A stretch of 64,000 bases of DNA from Phycisphaerales bacterium (GTDB lineage: Bacteria; Planctomycetota; Phycisphaerae; Sedimentisphaerales; Anaerobacaceae). The DNA is taken from NCBI GenBank assembly GCA_003141315.1, contig PLLP01000002.1, positions 62,001 to 126,000 on the forward strand, in the 5' to 3' direction. This document shows, piece by piece, positions 14,054 to 56,261 of this stretch. Position 1 is the stretch's first letter, and each line of letters begins with the position of its first letter. The notes beneath the pieces were generated by a model. The model did no database searches. It was given only the letters and a program-made list of their open reading frames with translations, and was not told the DNA's origin. The translations under genes were made by a program, and so were the position numbers.

Positions 14054-14138
14054 CTCGTAATAAAGCTCATGTTTTTCAACTGTTCTTGTGTTTTAGTCTC
14101 GAAAAATGGCCTGCCATGAGCGAGCGAAGCGAGTCGAA

Positions 14139-14491
14139 TGGAGGCGGGGGGATTCGAACCCCCGTCCCGTGATATCTCTGATTAAGCTACTACATGTTTA
14201 GTCGTTCCTTTGCTGTTCGCTTACCTCAACGCCAAACGACATGCTTTAAGTTCAGCTATCCCGGGATTTGGTCTTTTTCCTCAGGCCCGGGCGACCATTG
14301 GAAGCAGCCTGCTATATTGACGCCCTTACCAGCCCCGCAGGCAGGACCGGCAAGGACGGGTTGCCTAATTTAGGCAGCCATTGCGTACTGGTAGTTGCCA
14401 GTTACAGTTTTACCGGATGATTAACCAGGCCAACCGGCGTCCTGGACATGCAGCTCAACCTTCAACTATCCGGTCGAAGCCTTTCGCCCCC
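14139..14491 (-). ncRNA. ssrA: Transfer-messenger RNA (tmRNA)
   Basis: 353-nt tmRNA, minus strand. The 5' end GGGGGCG pairs with the 3' CGCCTCC to form a 7-bp acceptor stem with one G-U pair. The T arm reads GGGGGTTCGAATCCCCC, and the 5' part contains GGCTTCGACCGGATAG. The tag frame ends in TAA at 14370-14372. Reading back gives GNYQYAMAA (14373-14399), with GGC the likely resume codon. The discriminator A is followed by TTC, so CCA is not encoded. The molecule frees stalled ribosomes and tags truncated proteins for proteolysis. Confidence 0.95.
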
Positions 14492-37626: not shown

Positions 37627-37662
37627 CCCCCGCTGCTGTCTTGCGACAGCAAGACGCGGGGG
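37627..37662 (+). terminator. Compound terminator after the aldo/keto reductase gene
   Basis: The outer stem CCCCCGC/GCGGGGG holds an inner palindrome TGCTGTC-TTGC-GACAGCA. As at 29763, a second palindrome seems to sit in the loop of the standard terminator. Followed by CTAAAT. Confidence 0.65.
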
Positions 37663-37736: not shown

Positions 37737-38194
37737 TAATCAAAAGAAAAACTCACATCATCCGCCTATGGCGGACCTGCGGCGGGCAAGATAGCGGGAA
37801 AACACCACAAAAGGGTTTGGAGAGGGGAAGAGACGTCCTATAATGTACAATTTGCCTGTATTAACATTGCGTAGGCGTGGCCACAAAAAGGCTCAAAAGC
37901 AAATAGACAGGATTACAGGATAAACAGGATTTTTAAGCCACAAAAAGACACCCGCCTTCGTTAAAACTACGGCGTGGTCCGCCTGCGGCGGACCTGCGGC
38001 GGGCAGACACCAGACTCAAGACGCAAGAAACAAGACTCAAGGCGGGGTGGGGGCAATTAAATTAAAAAAAATGATTGTTATTTATGAAGCTGACGATTAT
38101 TATATTAAGGTTTCGTAAGGAAAAAGATTATAAGGCTGCCAGGGCAATACCTTTATAAGGTGTGTTTGACTATGGCTTTAACAGGATTGATGAA

Positions 38195-38431
38195 CCGTGC
38201 GGAGTAGGCTGATACAAGGTCTGCTCAGCCGAACTACCCAATTTTCGGGTTTGGTAGCCTGGAAACTGGTGTTTCCGCTGCAATGGCGCAGGGCAACTTG
38301 GACTCGGGAGAGTTCTTTGGTGCAGGAGTTTGATTATTCGCCTGCAAGAGGGGGCTCCTGATGTAGAGAGTTCATTTACGCTGCCCGCCGTTGAAGTGGA
38401 GACCCGAAGGATGGTTTCCACTTTTTATTTT
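38195..38431 (+). ncRNA. Unidentified structured RNA or nusA leader
   Basis: About 240 bases packed with helices and ending in a strong terminator, directly before nusA. Visible helices: GGCTGA (38207)/TCAGCC (38225); CTACC (38234)/GGTAG (38253); GGAAAC-TGGT-GTTTCC (38261-38276); CTGC/GCAG around 38278-38291. Two mutually exclusive pairings share the segment at 38322: GCAGG/CCTGC (38341) or CAGGAG/CTCCTG (38355). It does not show tmRNA, RNase P, SRP, T-box, TPP, cobalamin or FMN signatures. It may be an independent RNA or a transcription-attenuating leader of the nusA operon. Confidence 0.55.
38394..38431 (+). terminator. Intrinsic terminator 25 bases before nusA
   Basis: 11-bp stem AAGTGGAGACC/GGTTTCCACTT (one G-U pair) with an 8-base loop, followed by TTTATTTT. 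It must end transcription of the upstream RNA or attenuate nusA. Confidence 0.88.
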
Positions 38432-38455
38432 AAGCAGTTAAGGATAATGGTTTTT

Positions 38456-39706
38456 ATGGTTAATCCGGAACTAATCAGAATCGTAGAAAACATAGCCCGT
38501 GACAGGAAGATAGACAAAGAATCCATTTTTCTGGACCTCGAAGAGGCGATTATTTCGTCGTCGAAGAAGCACTTTGGGGACCTGGCAGGCGTGTTCGAGG
38601 TTCATATCGACCGCAACAGCGGCGAGATGACGGCAACGCGGAACGGCGAGTCGATAGACATAAAGCAGCTGGGTCGTATTTCGGCACAGGCTGCCAAGCA
38701 GGTTATGGTTCAGAAGATACGGGCGGATGAACGGGACTCGATATTCACGGAATTTGCCCAGCGGCGAGGCGAAATCATCAGCGGGACGGTGGTGCGGTAT
38801 GAGGGCGGGACTATGATTATAAGTCTCAACCACCGGACCGAGGCGATTATGCCGAAATCGGAGCAGATTGCGGGTCAGACGCACAAGCCATCTGAGAGGA
38901 TTCAATGCCTGATTCTCGAAGTAAAAGAGGTATCGAGCCAGATTAAAATCATATTATCGAGGACTCACCCGGACTTTATCCGCAGGCTGTTCGAGCTTGA
39001 GGTGCCGGAGATTGTGGAGAGCATAATCGAGATACGCGCTTTGGCGAGGGAGGCGGGCTATCGCACGAAGGTGGCGGTGGCGTCGCTGGATGAGAAGGTC
39101 GATGCGGTGGGGGCGTGCGTGGGCGTTCGAGGCAGCAGGATAAAAAATATAGTCGATGAGCTTGGCGGGGAAAAGATAGACATTGTGCGGTGGTCGGACT
39201 CATCGCAGATATTTATTACCAACGCGCTTATGCCGGCGAAGGTAAGCGAGATAGCGTTGTGTTTCGAGCTTGGCAGGGCAACAGTGGTGGTGGATGACGA
39301 CCAGCTGAGTCTTGCAATCGGCAAGCACGGACAGAACGTACGGCTGGCGGCGAGGATTACGGGCTGGGATATAGATATTCTTACGCCGGACGAATACAAC
39401 CAGTCTATTGAGAAGCTGACGAACTGCGTCAAAACCGTCGAAGGCGGGGACGATATGATGGTGGACAAGCTGATAGCGCTTGGGATTATTTCGGTAGCGG
39501 ACCTGGAGGACGTTGGGGTGGAGCCGTTAGTTAAAGAGCTGAACATCAAAGATGAGCTTGCGGGCAAACTGATAACGGCGGCGGAAGGCGAAGCGAAAAG
39601 GCTGGCATCGCAGAAAACGAGTCAGGCGGAAAACCTGTTAAAGCAGTCCGCTGACGGCGCAGCGCCGCCGGAAGCAAAAGACGGGGGAATAGCCGAAAGC
39701 GTGTAA
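38456..39706 (+). CDS. nusA: Transcription termination/antitermination factor NusA
   Basis: 416 residues from the ATG at 38456 (AAGGA 11 bases upstream; an earlier ATG at 38447 is too close to the site). The N-terminal RNA polymerase-binding domain starts MVNPELIRIVENIARDRKID. An S1 domain (ISGTVVRYEGGTMIISL, about residues 97-165), KH domains (GACVGVRGSRIKNIVDELGGE, LAIGKHGQNVRLAARITGWD) and a helix-hairpin-helix-like end (IALGIISVADLEDVGVEPLV) follow. It paces RNA polymerase and supports termination and antitermination. First gene of nusA-infB-rbfA; rimP, usually upstream, is missing. Confidence 0.96.
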   Translation: MVNPELIRIVENIARDRKIDKESIFLDLEEAIISSSKKHFGDLAGVFEVHIDRNSGEMTATRNGESIDIKQLGRISAQAAKQVMVQKIRADERDSIFTEFAQRRGEIISGTVVRYEGGTMIISLNHRTEAIMPKSEQIAGQTHKPSERIQCLILEVKEVSSQIKIILSRTHPDFIRRLFELEVPEIVESIIEIRALAREAGYRTKVAVASLDEKVDAVGACVGVRGSRIKNIVDELGGEKIDIVRWSDSSQIFITNALMPAKVSEIALCFELGRATVVVDDDQLSLAIGKHGQNVRLAARITGWDIDILTPDEYNQSIEKLTNCVKTVEGGDDMMVDKLIALGIISVADLEDVGVEPLVKELNIKDELAGKLITAAEGEAKRLASQKTSQAENLLKQSADGAAPPEAKDGGIAESV

Positions 39707-39726: not shown

Positions 39727-42456
39727 TTGGCTACTACGAAAGTGTACATTTTGGCGAAGGAGCTTGGGGTTAAGAGCACCGCCATAATCAAGAAATGCCA
39801 GGACGAGGGTCTTGATGAAGTAAAGAATCACATGACGACGATATCGGCGGGTCTCGCGGCGACGATAAAGGAATGGTTCAGCGAAGGCGATCATATTACA
39901 AGCGAGGAGACCACAGACAAGGTTGACCTTCAGAAGGTTCGGGTAAAGCGGAAGGAGAAAGCAGCGTCTGCGGCAGCGGAGGCGCCGGCAGTAGCGATAG
40001 AATCGGTACCAACAACTTCGACTGGTTCGACAAGCTCACCACAAGCGGGTGCGGTTCTTATAGAGCCTGCATCCGGGGCCGGGACGGTTGAGGCTGTAAG
40101 TGCGCCACCGGCGATGCCTGTAGAGACTATTTCGCAAGCGGGGCCGGGGGTCGAGGCAGCTGGAATGCCGGCAGCGGTCGGCGGAGTTCAGGTGCCTGCG
40201 GCAGGAGGAGCAGGTATTCACAAAGCGCCGGTTGAGGTTGTGAAACCGAAGCCGGAACCGATAAAGCCCGCGGGGCCGATGCTTGACAAACCGAGGCCGG
40301 CGCAGTTAACGGGGCCGCGAGTGGTGCGGGTAGAGGCGATGGAGCCAGTTCGCAGGCCGAGTCCGCCGAGACCAAGATATGACAAACCGCTTACTCAGCC
40401 TTTGGTTGATGCGCAATCGAGCGACGGGCTGCTGTCGATAAAGGGCAAGAAGGTCTCGCTGGTAAAACATCCGAAGCACAAGGGGCATGACGGCGTGGTG
40501 GTAAGCGAAGAGCTGCTGCCTGATGCGCCGAAAAAGGCGAAGTATCTTACGCTCCGGCGGCAGAGGGATATTGAAGAGAGGCGGGCACGTCTGGATGCGG
40601 CGGGCGGGGAGCGGCTGCGAATCAGGCCAGTGCGGAAGATTGCGACGAAGGCGGAAAAATCAGCCTTTGGTGGACAGGCGATAGCAAAGCCGACACAGGC
40701 AGAGGTGACCGAGCCGGTATCGATAAAAGATTTATCCGCTGCGCTGGCGGTGAAGTCTGCGGACGTAATCGCGAAACTTATGGGTCAGGGGGTTTTGGCG
40801 ACAGCGAATGAGATAATCAGCAATGAAGTGGCGGAGCTTGTTGCGCTGGAATTAGGGTGCGAATTAAAAATCGTGCCGAAAAAGACACTTGAAGACCAGA
40901 TAAGGGAGCGGTTCGAGACGAGGGAGCGCAAGAATCTAACGCCCCGGCCGATAGTGGCGACAATGCTCGGCCACGTTGACCATGGCAAGACGAGTTTGCT
41001 GGATAAAATCCGCTCGACGAACGTGACGGCTGGCGAGGCGGGCGGTATTACGCAGCACATCGGGGCATACCAGGCGAAGGTCGGAGGCAACAAGGTGACG
41101 TTTCTCGATACGCCGGGCCATGAGGCATTTACCGCGATGCGAGCGCGCGGGGCAAATATGACCGACGTGGTTGTAGTTGTAATAGCTGCTGATGACGGCG
41201 TGATGCAGCAGACCATCGAGGCGATAGCGCACAGCAAGGCGGCGAACGTTCCGGTGATTGTGGCACTTAATAAGATTGACCTGCCGGGACTGGATACCAA
41301 CCGCATTTATTCACAGCTTTCGGAACACAATCTTGTTCCGACGGAATGGGGCGGGCAGACCGACGTTGTAAAGACGAGCGCGGTGACGGGCCAGGGGATA
41401 AACGACCTGCTCGAACATATAAATTATATAAGAGACCTTCAGGACCTGAAGGCGGACGATACGATACCGGCGACGGGCTGGGTGGTAGAGGCAAAGATGA
41501 CTGCGCAGCGCGGGACGATAGCGACGCTGCTGGTCAAGGAAGGTGTGCTGAATAAAGGCGATTGTATTTTGGCGGGCGCTACTTACGGGAAGGTAAAGAG
41601 CATAAAGGACTACTCCGGCAAGAACGTAAAGTCGGCGACAAGCGCTATGCCGGTGGAAATCACGGGTCTAACTGGGACTCCGCAGGCAGGCGACAGATTT
41701 TATTGTCTGGGTGAGGATATAAACAGCGCCAAGCAGGCCGCCGAAGAGAACCTGTCAAGCTCGCGCGAGCGGTCGCTTGCGAAACGCAAGCAGGTGACGC
41801 TCGAAAACCTGTTCAGCCAGATAGCGGCGGGCGATGTAAAGGAGCTGAACATAATTCTTCGTGCTGACGTTCAGGGTTCTGTGGACGTTCTGACGAAATA
41901 TCTTGCGGAGCTGAACACTGAAGAGGTGAAGATTAAGATTCTTCAGGCATCGACGGGCGGGGTGAGCGAGGGCGACGTGATACTGGCGGAGGCATCCAAC
42001 GCCATTATAATAGCCTTCAGCGTGGTAGCCGACGAGAAGGTGGCGAAGATAGCCGAAACCAAGGGCGTGGATATAAGATATTATAACATAATATACCGGA
42101 TTTCGGAGGATTTGAAAAAGTCGATGGCGGGACTTCTGGAGCCTGAGAGGAGCGAGAAGACCATCGGCAGGGTGGTTGTCCGAGACATATTCAAGGTATC
42201 GAAGGTGGGTTCAATCGCCGGCTGTTACGTGAACGACGGGGTGGTTAAAAAATCCGGGAAGGTTCGGCTGATAAGGAACAGCGTTGTTATCCGCAATGAC
42301 CTGTCAATAGATTCTCTCAAGCACTTTAAGGATGATGCGCGTGAGGTGAAGGCGGGTCTCGAATGCGGAATAAAGCTTGCGAAATACGACGACATAAAGG
42401 CCAACGACCTGTTCGAGGTTTATGAGGTTGTGCATACCAAGCGGACGCTGGAATAG
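39727..42456 (+). CDS. infB: Translation initiation factor IF-2
   Basis: 909 residues from TTG 39727, with CTGGAG upstream. The N-terminus has an IF-2 N-domain ([20 protein letters not shown]) and a long Pro/Ala/Val linker. A second IF-2 N-like domain ([20 protein letters not shown], about 333-380) precedes the G domain with [14 protein letters not shown] (about 414), DTPGHEAF and NKIDLPG, then domains II-IV. It places initiator tRNA on the ribosome. The linker contains a captured GGTTCGACAAGCTCACC repeat at 40024-40040 (encodes [11 protein letters not shown]). Confidence 0.97.
40024..40040. repeat. GTTCGACAAGCTCACC repeat inside infB
   Basis: A copy of the dispersed GGTTCGACAAGCTCACC element lies within the linker-coding part of infB, near residue 100. 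The frame is kept. The same sequence is intergenic at 30923. Confidence 0.75.
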
Positions 42457-42605: not shown

Positions 42606-42986
42606 ATGCCGACGCGAAGACAGGAAAGGATGGCCCGCATAATTCGTGATGCGGTGAGCAATGCGGTGATGAATCTGAACGACCCGCGGATAACAAGTTT
42701 TGTGAGTGTTGTCCGGGTTCAGGTGTCAGCGGACATGCGGATAGCCGACATTTCATTCAGTCTTTTCGGGGGCAGCGAGGCGGACCAGAAGAAGACGTTT
42801 ATTGCGATTGAACACGCCCATCCGCGGATACAATCGCAGTTGGCGAGCGGGCTCGATTGCAGGTTTTGCCCGGTATTGCGATTTCACCGGGACGAGAAGA
42901 TGAAGCAGACGATGGAGGCGTTTGGGAAAATAGACGCGGAGCGCCGCAGCAAAGAACAGCATGAGCAGGAGCAGCAGGAACAATAA
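42606..42986 (+). CDS. rbfA: Ribosome-binding factor A
   Basis: 126 residues. The N-terminus RRQERMARIIRDAVSNAVMN and DPRITSFVSVVRVQVSADMR show the KH-like RbfA fold, which assists 30S subunit maturation. The tail is acidic and Gln-rich. GGAGG lies 8 bases before the ATG. It follows infB as in many bacteria, but with about 150 bases and a repeat between them. Confidence 0.92.
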   Translation: MPTRRQERMARIIRDAVSNAVMNLNDPRITSFVSVVRVQVSADMRIADISFSLFGGSEADQKKTFIAIEHAHPRIQSQLASGLDCRFCPVLRFHRDEKMKQTMEAFGKIDAERRSKEQHEQEQQEQ

Positions 42987-43014: not shown

Positions 43015-43692
43015 ATGGAGCTGGAGGTTATGACAGAGTCAAGAAATTTTGCCGGTAAGGTGCAGCAGGTTTTCCGGACATTGAGGCGTAAATATCCGAA
43101 GCCTGAATGTCCTGATTACGAGGAGCCTGCCGATGCTGTTGTGTTCGCGGTTATCAGCGAGCATACGACCGAGCAGCAGTCGGAACACGCGATGCGAAAG
43201 GTAAAGGAGCACTTTATCGATTTGAACGACCTGCGGGTGTCGAGGCCGGAAGAAATCGTCGAGGCGCTCGGCGCCGACAGCGGCGTTTCGGTTCAGTCCG
43301 CAGCGAGCCTTACGATAATACTGAAGGCCATTTTTGAAAAATATAATATGGTGACGCTGACAGACATAAAAAAGCTCGGCAAAAAGCAGATACGCGATAT
43401 CATCAGCCAATTGCCGGAGATGAGCGCGTTCGTGATTGATTACTGTATGCTTACGGCGTACAAGGCGCACGCGATTCCGCTGACGGCGAAGATGTTCGAA
43501 TATTTGAAGGCGGAACGGATAGTCGGCCCCGGGATGGAGCCGCAGCAGGTTTCGCAAATGCTTGCGCGGCAGATACCTGCCAGCCAGGGTTATACTTTTT
43601 ACGCGGTTTTGCGGAAAGAGGCGGAAAGGCCGCCGGCAAAAAAGGATAAGAAAAGCGAGAAAGGCGTGAAAAGTAAGAAGGGTAAGAAATAG
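43015..43692 (+). CDS. Endonuclease III-like (HhH-GPD fold) protein lacking catalytic residues
   Basis: 225 residues from ATG 43015 (ATG 43030 is also possible). It follows the fold of endonuclease III/HhH-GPD DNA glycosylases: PADAVVFAVISEHTTEQQSE in place of the usual FELLVATILSQ-type segment, and LGKKQIRDIISQLPEMSAFVIDYC at the hairpin. But the hallmark LPGVGxKTA (with catalytic Lys) is replaced by LPEMSAFVI, the catalytic Asp segment (VDTHV) by LTAKM, and no C-terminal 4Fe-4S cysteines remain. It may bind DNA without cleaving it. The lysine-rich tail (KKDKKSEKGVKSKKGKK) resembles a dispersed AAAAG/GAAGGG repeat read as protein. Confidence 0.65.
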   Translation: MELEVMTESRNFAGKVQQVFRTLRRKYPKPECPDYEEPADAVVFAVISEHTTEQQSEHAMRKVKEHFIDLNDLRVSRPEEIVEALGADSGVSVQSAASLTIILKAIFEKYNMVTLTDIKKLGKKQIRDIISQLPEMSAFVIDYCMLTAYKAHAIPLTAKMFEYLKAERIVGPGMEPQQVSQMLARQIPASQGYTFYAVLRKEAERPPAKKDKKSEKGVKSKKGKK

Positions 43693-55552: not shown

Positions 55553-55597
55553 GGGAAGCAAATTAAAAATTAAATTTCAAATATCAAAATAAAAAAA

Positions 55598-56135
55598 GAG
55601 TGGGTCTGTAAGCCGAGTTCTGTCCCGCACCGGTTTGAGAATTTGAAATTTCAAATGTCAAATATCAAAAACGAGGAGGCTGTTCCGCGATTTTCAATTT
55701 TGATTTTTAAATTTTCAATTTTCAAACCGGTGCGGGCGCGATCATTTATCTTGGCCGGCTGTTGCCAGCCGGCTCGAGCGGCCTACCCGCTGTTAATACC
55801 CGGGCCGGGTACCGCAAAACCTGATGCAAGCATCGGGTTCGCTGTCAGCATGTTTGGCCTTGCAGGCGGCTGGGTTTTCCCTGCCGGCACTGTCGCCAGC
55901 GCCGCGGTGCGCTCTTACCGCACCATTTCACCATTGCCTCCCTGCGGTTGTCTTTCGACAACCAGACGCAGAGGTCGGCTGTGTATTTTCTGTGGCACTA
56001 TCCCGCCCCCGCCATTTTGCGAAGCAAAATGACGAGGTGGCAGCAGTTAGCTGTCGCCGTGCCCTTTCCTGCCCGGACTTTCCTCCCCCGCCATTTTGCA
56101 AAGCAAAGCAGCGGGGGCGATCGCGCGACCCACTC
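55598..56135 (-). ncRNA. rnpB: RNase P RNA (bacterial type A-like) with enlarged helices
   Basis: 538-nt catalytic RNA that matures tRNA 5' ends. Helix P1 is GAGTGGGTC (5') with GACCCACTC (3'). Core blocks are GGAGGAAAGTCCGGGC, GGTAAGAGCGCACCGC, GGCGACAGTGCC, GCAAGGCCAAAC, CGGGTAGGCCGC and GACAGAACTCGGCTTACAGACCC. The 3' end runs into TTTTTTTATTTT. It is longer than the usual 350-400 nt because of a 113-base hairpin at 55624-55736 (place of P19) and two similar hairpins at 56004-56036 and 56084-56118 (P9-like position and P3). Confidence 0.95.
55624..55736. repeat. 113-base repeat-like hairpin inserted in RNase P RNA
   Basis: A perfect 15-bp base (CCCGCACCGGTTTGA/TCAAACCGGTGCGGG) continues into complementary A/T-rich tracts (AATTTGAAATTTCAAATGTC and the AAATTTTCAATTTTC side). 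The tracts resemble the intergenic 'aatttcaaatatcaaa' sequence at 55571-55590 and 43764. Confidence 0.8.
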
Positions 56136-56261
56136 GGACGTATTATATCAAAAATTAAAGAGGAAAAATAAAAAAATAAGAAAAGTAGGAAAGGTGTGAA
56201 AGGTAAGAAAAGTGAGAAAGGGTTAGAACTACCCGCGACCTCGCAAGATACAAGCGCTTTT

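Follow-up and report, generated by a model that had tools for sequence, protein, structure and literature searches.

Two overlapping leader ORFs and a conserved antiterminator point to a probable translation-reading attenuator upstream of nusA-infB-rbfA in Phycisphaerae

The nusA-infB operon is almost universally present, and our understanding of how it is controlled is still partial. In the trp, his and pheA attenuators, the position of the ribosome on a leader ORF picks the terminator or the antiterminator, while infC is autoregulated by IF3 at its AUU start codon. To our knowledge, few cis-regulatory RNAs have been described in Phycisphaerae-type bacteria. Work published by Naville and Gautheret (2010; PMC2965389) presents rimP-leader as a putative attenuator of rimP-nusA-infB operons, which consists of a GGGc..gCCC stem without larger conserved element, shows no visible antiterminator in most species, and for which NusA is proposed as regulator. 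In B. subtilis, the nusA operon is controlled by NusA-stimulated attenuation (Mondal et al., 2016, as cited in PMC12288461). According to PMC6511841, the E. coli metY-rimP-nusA-infB operon carries terminators upstream of rimP, is cold-induced and is raised when translation initiation is impaired. Termination-reinitiation at overlapping starts, GUG included, is also documented in E. coli (PMC9841429).

The window, that is the whole stretch of 64,000 nucleotides analyzed here, comes from a genome of 2.35 Mb, in which the locus lies on contig 12. By comparison of NusA, the nearest named relatives are Sedimentisphaerales/Phycisphaerae MAGs (73-76% identity). The leader occupies an intergenic stretch with an aldo/keto reductase gene on one side and nusA on the other, and precedes these genes:

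39727..42456, + strand: infB, translation initiation factor IF2 (Pfam IF-2, IF2_N)
42606..42986, + strand: rbfA, ribosome-binding factor A (Pfam RBFA)
38447..39706, + strand: nusA, start at 38447 or 38456 (Pfam NusA_N, KH_5), first gene of nusA-infB-rbfA

An ORF of 225 aa (43015-43692) located 3' of rbfA gave no match in the Pfam search. The initial annotation had pointed out that rimP, the usual neighbour of nusA, is missing, and this holds well beyond the locus: no RimP_N domain was found in the genome itself or in any of 61 sampled genomes of the class Phycisphaerae. The absence of rimP is thus not peculiar to the nusA leader, and suggests a class-wide loss or strong divergence of RimP, a 30S maturation factor, in Phycisphaerae. 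Elsewhere in the window we observed a tmRNA (14136-14491, - strand; predicted tag peptide GNYQYAMAA) and a class A RNase P RNA (55593-56136, - strand) that matches the full model and must carry long insertions, since it spans 544 nt against 367 model positions. Upstream of the leader, a GC-rich palindromic stretch (CCGCC...GGCGGACCTGCGGCGGGC) is present in two copies (37760-37790 and 37978-38005). The terminator-like hairpin CCCGCTGCTGTCTTGCGACAGCAAGACGCGGGG at 37629-37662 is a dispersed hairpin repeat; its core has exactly 3 genomic copies, and relative L031 carries a near-identical copy between its leader terminator and nusA.

According to our in silico analysis, the leader transcript would run from a promoter-like site to an intrinsic terminator, ending just before nusA:

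38075..38103, + strand: predicted sigma70-like promoter TTGTTA-17-TATTAT, with a -10 region GACGATTATTATAAT recognisable here in most family members
38396..38429, + strand: intrinsic terminator, 38396-GTGGAGACC..GGTTTCCAC-38421, stem of 38396-38404 with 38413-38421, followed by a U-run

The strong terminator reported before nusA is indeed there, with its stem (38396-38421) and U-run about 25 nt from the nusA start, and a terminator therefore lies between the predicted promoter and the first gene, as in leader-ORF attenuators. Several helices had also been proposed and are confirmed; a 267-nt stretch of the leader folds at -97.9 kcal/mol and beats 199 of 200 dinucleotide shuffles (z = -2.8). 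In agreement with the initial annotation, which recognized no known RNA family, the Rfam search, which covered riboswitches, T-boxes and r-protein leaders, gave no match at gathering score for the leader. Lower-scoring matches were not credible, and the weak ones to c4-a1b1, isrK and CRISPR-repeat models were discarded as far under their gathering scores. The structured RNA placed at 38170-38455 is real, but it starts further 5' (promoter at 38075-38103, 5' box at 38134-38141) and is largely also coding, as described below.

Direct DNA similarity to the leader fades quickly and was found in 4 of 60 relatives only, so that leaders were instead collected as the 700 nt 5' of nusA from relatives picked via NusA; these sequences are MAGs, which may carry errors, and their alignment is approximate in variable loops. 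At most of the 57 loci of the source family (about 45 genera), the leader elements follow a common order: the -10-like GACGATTATTATAAT, a GGCTACCA box, a short ORF, a GTTTCTGCTTCAG box, GGAGG-N6-ATG-stop and a terminator close to GTGGAAAC..GTTTCCACTTTTT. A GTGGAAAC-N-GTTTCCACTTTTT terminator match stands 5' of nusA at all but a few of them. The search for homologues that had been advised therefore recovered a leader conserved in Phycisphaerae relatives, and its comparison indicates that it is kept 5' of nusA throughout this Sedimentisphaerales-like order, as well as in at least one other family of Phycisphaerae. In the genome studied, the leader and the terminator pattern are each single-copy. 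Among family loci the distance from attenuator terminator to nusA ranges from about 45 to 245 nt (L002, L006, L016, L035 and others), and in some family genomes this gap holds an additional hairpin.

The 5' arm of the terminator has a second potential partner upstream, within a long hairpin:

38271..38279, + strand: antiterminator base, 5' strand (family consensus GTTTCTGCTTCAG), pairing with 38395-38403
38395..38403, + strand: antiterminator base, 3' strand, common to the terminator 5' arm
38285..38305, + strand: antiterminator inner helix, 5' strand (GGCGCAGGGC...GGACTC)
38368..38389, + strand: antiterminator inner helix, 3' strand (cognate pairing; predicted structure)

The terminator 5' arm, TTGAAGTGGAAAC, has its complement in the GTTTCTGCTTCAG box, and the base helix is possible in 54 of 55 family members. 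Permutation tests compared cognate strands with strands shuffled between genomes; they ignore relatedness and several are confined to one family of related members, and with this reading the base helix gives a cognate mean of -13.9 against -13.1 kcal/mol (z = -5.2). In a fixed alignment, standard pairs fill 91.4% of cells, and sliding the partner by 1-3 columns lowers this to 39-54%. Shuffled controls on this alignment are exceeded only modestly, because both arms of the base are nearly invariant; where they change, they change together, as in GCCCGCG/CGGGAGTGG (L007), CCTTTTC/GAAAAGTGG (L008) and GCTTTAA/TTAAGG (L024). Support is much stronger for the inner helix, GCCGGGAAACGAACGAGGTT with AACCTCTGTTCGTTTTTGGC (z = -8.4, 54 relatives). 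In family f2, an independent, equivalent 5' partner of that family's own terminator arm was found (GCTTTCGCTTTGAAG with TTTTGAAGTGGAAAC, p = 0.003), and in f7 a partner is suggestive, weaker than in f2 (p = 0.009).

The base-pair comparison called for by the initial annotation thus gives compensatory support to the leader helices, by cognate-versus-shuffled pairing. The switch itself is another one than had been put forward. GCAGG/CCTGC (38322/38341) and CAGGAG/CTCCTG (38323/38355) are present in the sequence, but they do not form a conserved switch: on inspection of the alignment they fall in the variable apical loop of a larger hairpin, and nothing evidently equivalent is seen in relatives. 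The conserved switch instead opposes 38271-38279 with 38395-38403 to 38396-38404 with 38413-38421. A terminator and an antiterminator that excludes it by using its arm are kept directly 5' of nusA in dozens of genera, with the antiterminator weaker in f7, which supports the attenuator of the nusA operon suggested earlier.

The same RNA carries two overlapping short ORFs:

38157..38162, + strand: ORF1 Shine-Dalgarno AAGGTG (AGGTG-like before ORF1 in nearly all relatives)
38172..38207, + strand: ORF1, leader peptide MALTGLMNRAE* (11 aa), from comparison among relatives
38183..38186, + strand: putative ORF2 Shine-Dalgarno AGGA, 10 nt before the ORF2 GTG
38197..38361, + strand: ORF2 (54 aa), GTG start, TGA stop at 38359-38361, in the +1 frame relative to ORF1 with an 11-nt overlap

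The ORF1 consensus is MVLTGLANSAE*. In the 33 twelve-codon copies the start is always ATG and all three stops are used (TAG 23, TAA 8, TGA 2), and variation takes the form of synonymous changes and whole-codon in-frame insertions. For ORF2, we counted in-frame stops upstream of a conserved AUG-stop in 54 relatives: 9 in 1805 codons (0.5%), against 65 in 1796 (3.6%) and 47 in 1760 (2.7%) for the other frames. This open frame traces back to an invariant GTG within the last codons of ORF1, and a GG-containing tetramer stands 10 nt before the GTG in 72 of 90 relatives from ten families. The base before the GTG is free to vary (C 43, A 36, G 7, T 4), which alters the ORF1 amino acid and leaves the GTG constant. 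A start of ORF2 at the ATG of 'CAAATGGTGGCC' was rejected because this ATG is not kept (TTG, GTG, ATT or ACG in relatives) and has no Shine-Dalgarno, the GTG upstream being invariant. ORF2 passes through the 5' strand of the long antiterminator hairpin, and the coding signal thereby argues for a short ORF overlapping the antiterminator. No tandem codons for a regulatory amino acid were found in the ORF1 consensus or in ORF2; ORF1 shows no enrichment for one amino acid and hence no classical amino-acid signal. The ORF list also contains an antisense ORF opposite the leader (38170-38421).

We ran a strict detector of the overlapping ATG/GTG architecture on nusA leaders by family. It matched 46 of 58 leaders in f1, 13 of 13 in f2, 2 of 2 in f3, 18 of 21 in f7 and 3 of 3 in f12, with sparser matches in f5 (2 of 8), f6 (1 of 1), f15 (1 of 1) and f16 (1 of 3); f15 and f16, with a single match each, may have been hit by chance. 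In 2600 shuffles, 10 matches arose. None was detected in f4, f9, f11, f13 and f18-f22, and two f4 loci show the same layout slightly beyond the strict limits. About a fifth of source-family members fail the strict pattern, some being too diverged to score. Outside the source family, about 100 nusA loci (other planctomycetes, Omnitrophota, Firmicutes and others) yielded no such architecture; three matches in that set came from near relatives, with leaders that correspond to f1 copies.

ORF2 stays open over a similar length across families (36-60 codons), in the +1 frame of ORF1, which would also be expected if the two ORFs made one protein by programmed +1 frameshift, or if ORF2 encoded a small protein with a function of its own, the attenuator being incidental. 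We consider this very unlikely. The AGG-GTG spacing is fixed at 10 nt, the ORF1 stop follows the GTG at a changing distance (mostly 8, 11 or 14 nt), and the copies have no slippery codon in common. ORF2 peptides are unlike between families, and a Pfam search with ORF2 gave no match.

Coding signal across most of the RNA bears equally on the undescribed small RNA that the initial annotation had entertained: two overlapping ORFs with Shine-Dalgarno sequences, conserved starts and all three stops run through it, and leave that reading unsupported. More broadly, a strong terminator on a structured RNA with no Rfam family could belong to an undescribed riboswitch or to a trans-acting small RNA whose end simply happens to lie ahead of nusA. 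This is highly improbable, given that the leader is always 5' of nusA in the loci examined and single-copy in the genome, and that pairing and ORFs account for its conserved boxes.

The ORFs also weigh on a reading in which the terminator is stimulated directly by NusA, or by some other product of the operon, bound to the leader or to the elongation complex, the ORFs being secondary. NusA-stimulated intrinsic termination is reported for the B. subtilis nusA leader (Mondal et al., 2016, cited in PMC12288461), repression of the E. coli operon by NusA is cited in PMC2965389, and sequence conservation of the terminator is unusually high here. Such direct control leaves the overlapping ORFs, the invariant GUG and the long antiterminator unexplained, and we regard it as rather unlikely as the main mechanism; an added effect of NusA is still compatible with translation-reading attenuation.

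Near its end, ORF2 runs into a further translation signal in the antiterminator loop:

38349..38354, + strand: Shine-Dalgarno-like AGGGGG (GGAGG in most relatives); GGAG at 6-nt spacing to AUG in 49 of 54 relatives
38361..38366, + strand: AUG-stop ATGTAG, overlapping the ORF2 stop in the source locus (TGATGTAG) and ending ORF2 in most relatives

The codon after the AUG is TAG in 40, TAA in 10 and TGA in 4 of the 54 f1 relatives. The AUG-stop is kept in at least 8 copies in which ORF2 ends in another frame, source locus included, and other families have a Shine-Dalgarno and AUG, then a few codons, then a stop. From this comparison we take the site to be genuine. An interpretation of the AUG-stop as the sole mini-ORF was revised because the frame upstream proved open.

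Three further helices lie in the leader:

38134..38141, + strand: 5' box GGCTGCCA, 5' strand of the long-range helix P1, pairing with 38252-38259
38252..38259, + strand: P1 3' strand TGGTAGCC (cognate pairing; predicted structure)
38199..38228, + strand: hairpin P2, which overlaps both the start of ORF2 and the stop of ORF1
38261..38276, + strand: hairpin P4 GGAAACTGGTGTTTCC, from sequence and cognate pairing

In 41 relatives, cognate pairing exceeded shuffled pairing for P1 (5' box with TGGTGGCC; z = -3.2, p = 0.0012) and P2 (z = -2.9, p = 0.0024), both of which also occur in the structure predicted for the source leader and are less well supported than the antiterminator inner helix. The P4 arms (z = -2.1, p = 0.017) repeat the terminator arms, so that strand exchange is possible, and in the full-length fold the region from 38261 is paired with the terminator 3' arm. 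Pairing of P4 with a downstream GGGAAAC found no support (z = 0) and a start-stop hairpin hiding the Shine-Dalgarno was weakly supported (z = -1.8); both were dropped.

The competition was then modelled by partition-function folding of 45 leaders, with the ribosome represented by a 30-nt mask; these are equilibrium values, from which kinetic outcomes may differ. Naked leaders gave a mean of 0.41 for the antiterminator and 0.56 for the terminator, and in several relatives the terminator is already ahead. When the transcript extends just to the antiterminator 3' strand, as in a nascent leader, the antiterminator forms in 41 of 45. A ribosome masking the antiterminator 5' strand gave the terminator in 44 of 45 leaders and the antiterminator in none, and little changed with masks on the stop of ORF1 or on either the start or the stop of ORF2. 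For the source leader, antiterminator and terminator stand at 0.76 and 0.22 when naked and at 0.00 and 0.997 with a ribosome on the strand, and the nascent antiterminator at 0.96. The calculation predicts a near-balanced switch in which a ribosome on the antiterminator strand would release the terminator, so that ribosomes moving along ORF2 should favour termination.

Taken together, these data make it probable that the region is a cis-acting, translation-reading transcription attenuator of the nusA-infB-rbfA operon. The two ORFs, the competition between antiterminator and terminator, and the conservation of both emerge from comparative analysis; the sign of regulation, the coupling of ORF1 to ORF2 and initiation capacity or IF2 as the signal are what we infer from them. 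The nascent leader would first fold the long antiterminator hairpin (38271-38403), whose base takes up the terminator 5' arm, and an untranslated leader would tend toward read-through. ORF1, with its good Shine-Dalgarno and AUG, would load ribosomes that open P2 and permit initiation or re-initiation at the ORF2 GUG; as ORF1 overlaps this GUG, which borders on P2, access to the GUG may be governed by translation of ORF1. A ribosome translating ORF2 would then strip the antiterminator 5' strand, let the terminator form and turn the operon off. Good initiation would yield less NusA, IF2 and RbfA, and poor initiation more, in a negative feedback.

A modelled ribosome at the ORF2 stop/AUG-stop leaves the antiterminator intact, and the favoured model therefore does not explain the conserved site. 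The same attenuator could work with the opposite sign, a ribosome idling at the Shine-Dalgarno/AUG-stop favouring or locking the antiterminator and translation leading to read-through. Both signals are among the best conserved features, they sit in the apical loop of the antiterminator, and a ribosome placed there does not disturb it in folding. We nevertheless give this version a low probability: in 41 of 45 cases the calculated antiterminator already arises in the naked nascent leader, so no ribosome is required for it, and ribosomes would have to cross the antiterminator strand to reach the AUG-stop.

Returning to termination upon ORF2 translation, the presence of IF2 in the operon suggests a feedback on initiation capacity. 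Tentatively, and with some doubt, the two overlapping ORFs could represent a sensor class for translation-initiation capacity that controls IF2, NusA and RbfA homeostatically, the AUG-stop parking or recycling ribosomes in the antiterminator loop. If true, initiation capacity would directly set the supply of the three proteins, which is a testable prediction on how cells match transcription and translation machinery. The locus also illustrates that a call of 'structured RNA' can conceal overlapping small ORFs.

The leader would work like a leader-peptide attenuator and is positive for no described family testable here; a literature search, mostly of papers outside subscription, found no equivalent described system. 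It resembles rimP-leader as an intrinsic terminator in the leader of a nusA-infB operon with an unusually conserved stem sequence. The GGGc..gCCC stem 5' of rimP was not found in the Phycisphaerae nusA leader, which has instead a stem GTGGAAAC..GTTTCCAC, an antiterminator that is long and conserved, a pair of overlapping ORFs and no rimP gene. With the B. subtilis nusA operon it would share premature intrinsic termination in the leader; there the input is NusA itself, whereas here ORFs that are coding by comparison run across the antiterminator. Cold induction of the E. coli operon offers a parallel to the proposed feedback on initiation capacity, while overlapping leader ORFs and a comparable antiterminator are not described there in the accessible text. 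With infC, the leader has in common an initiation-factor gene and an atypical start codon as sensor, by analogy with the invariant GUG; infC control is, however, translational and acts on the factor gene itself, not on a leader ORF that drives attenuation. As in trp, his and pheA, a ribosome on a leader ORF would choose the hairpin, but here there is no single-codon run, two ORFs overlap at an invariant GUG, translation of ORF2 is predicted to abolish the antiterminator where theirs would allow it, and the targets are transcription and translation factors instead of biosynthesis.
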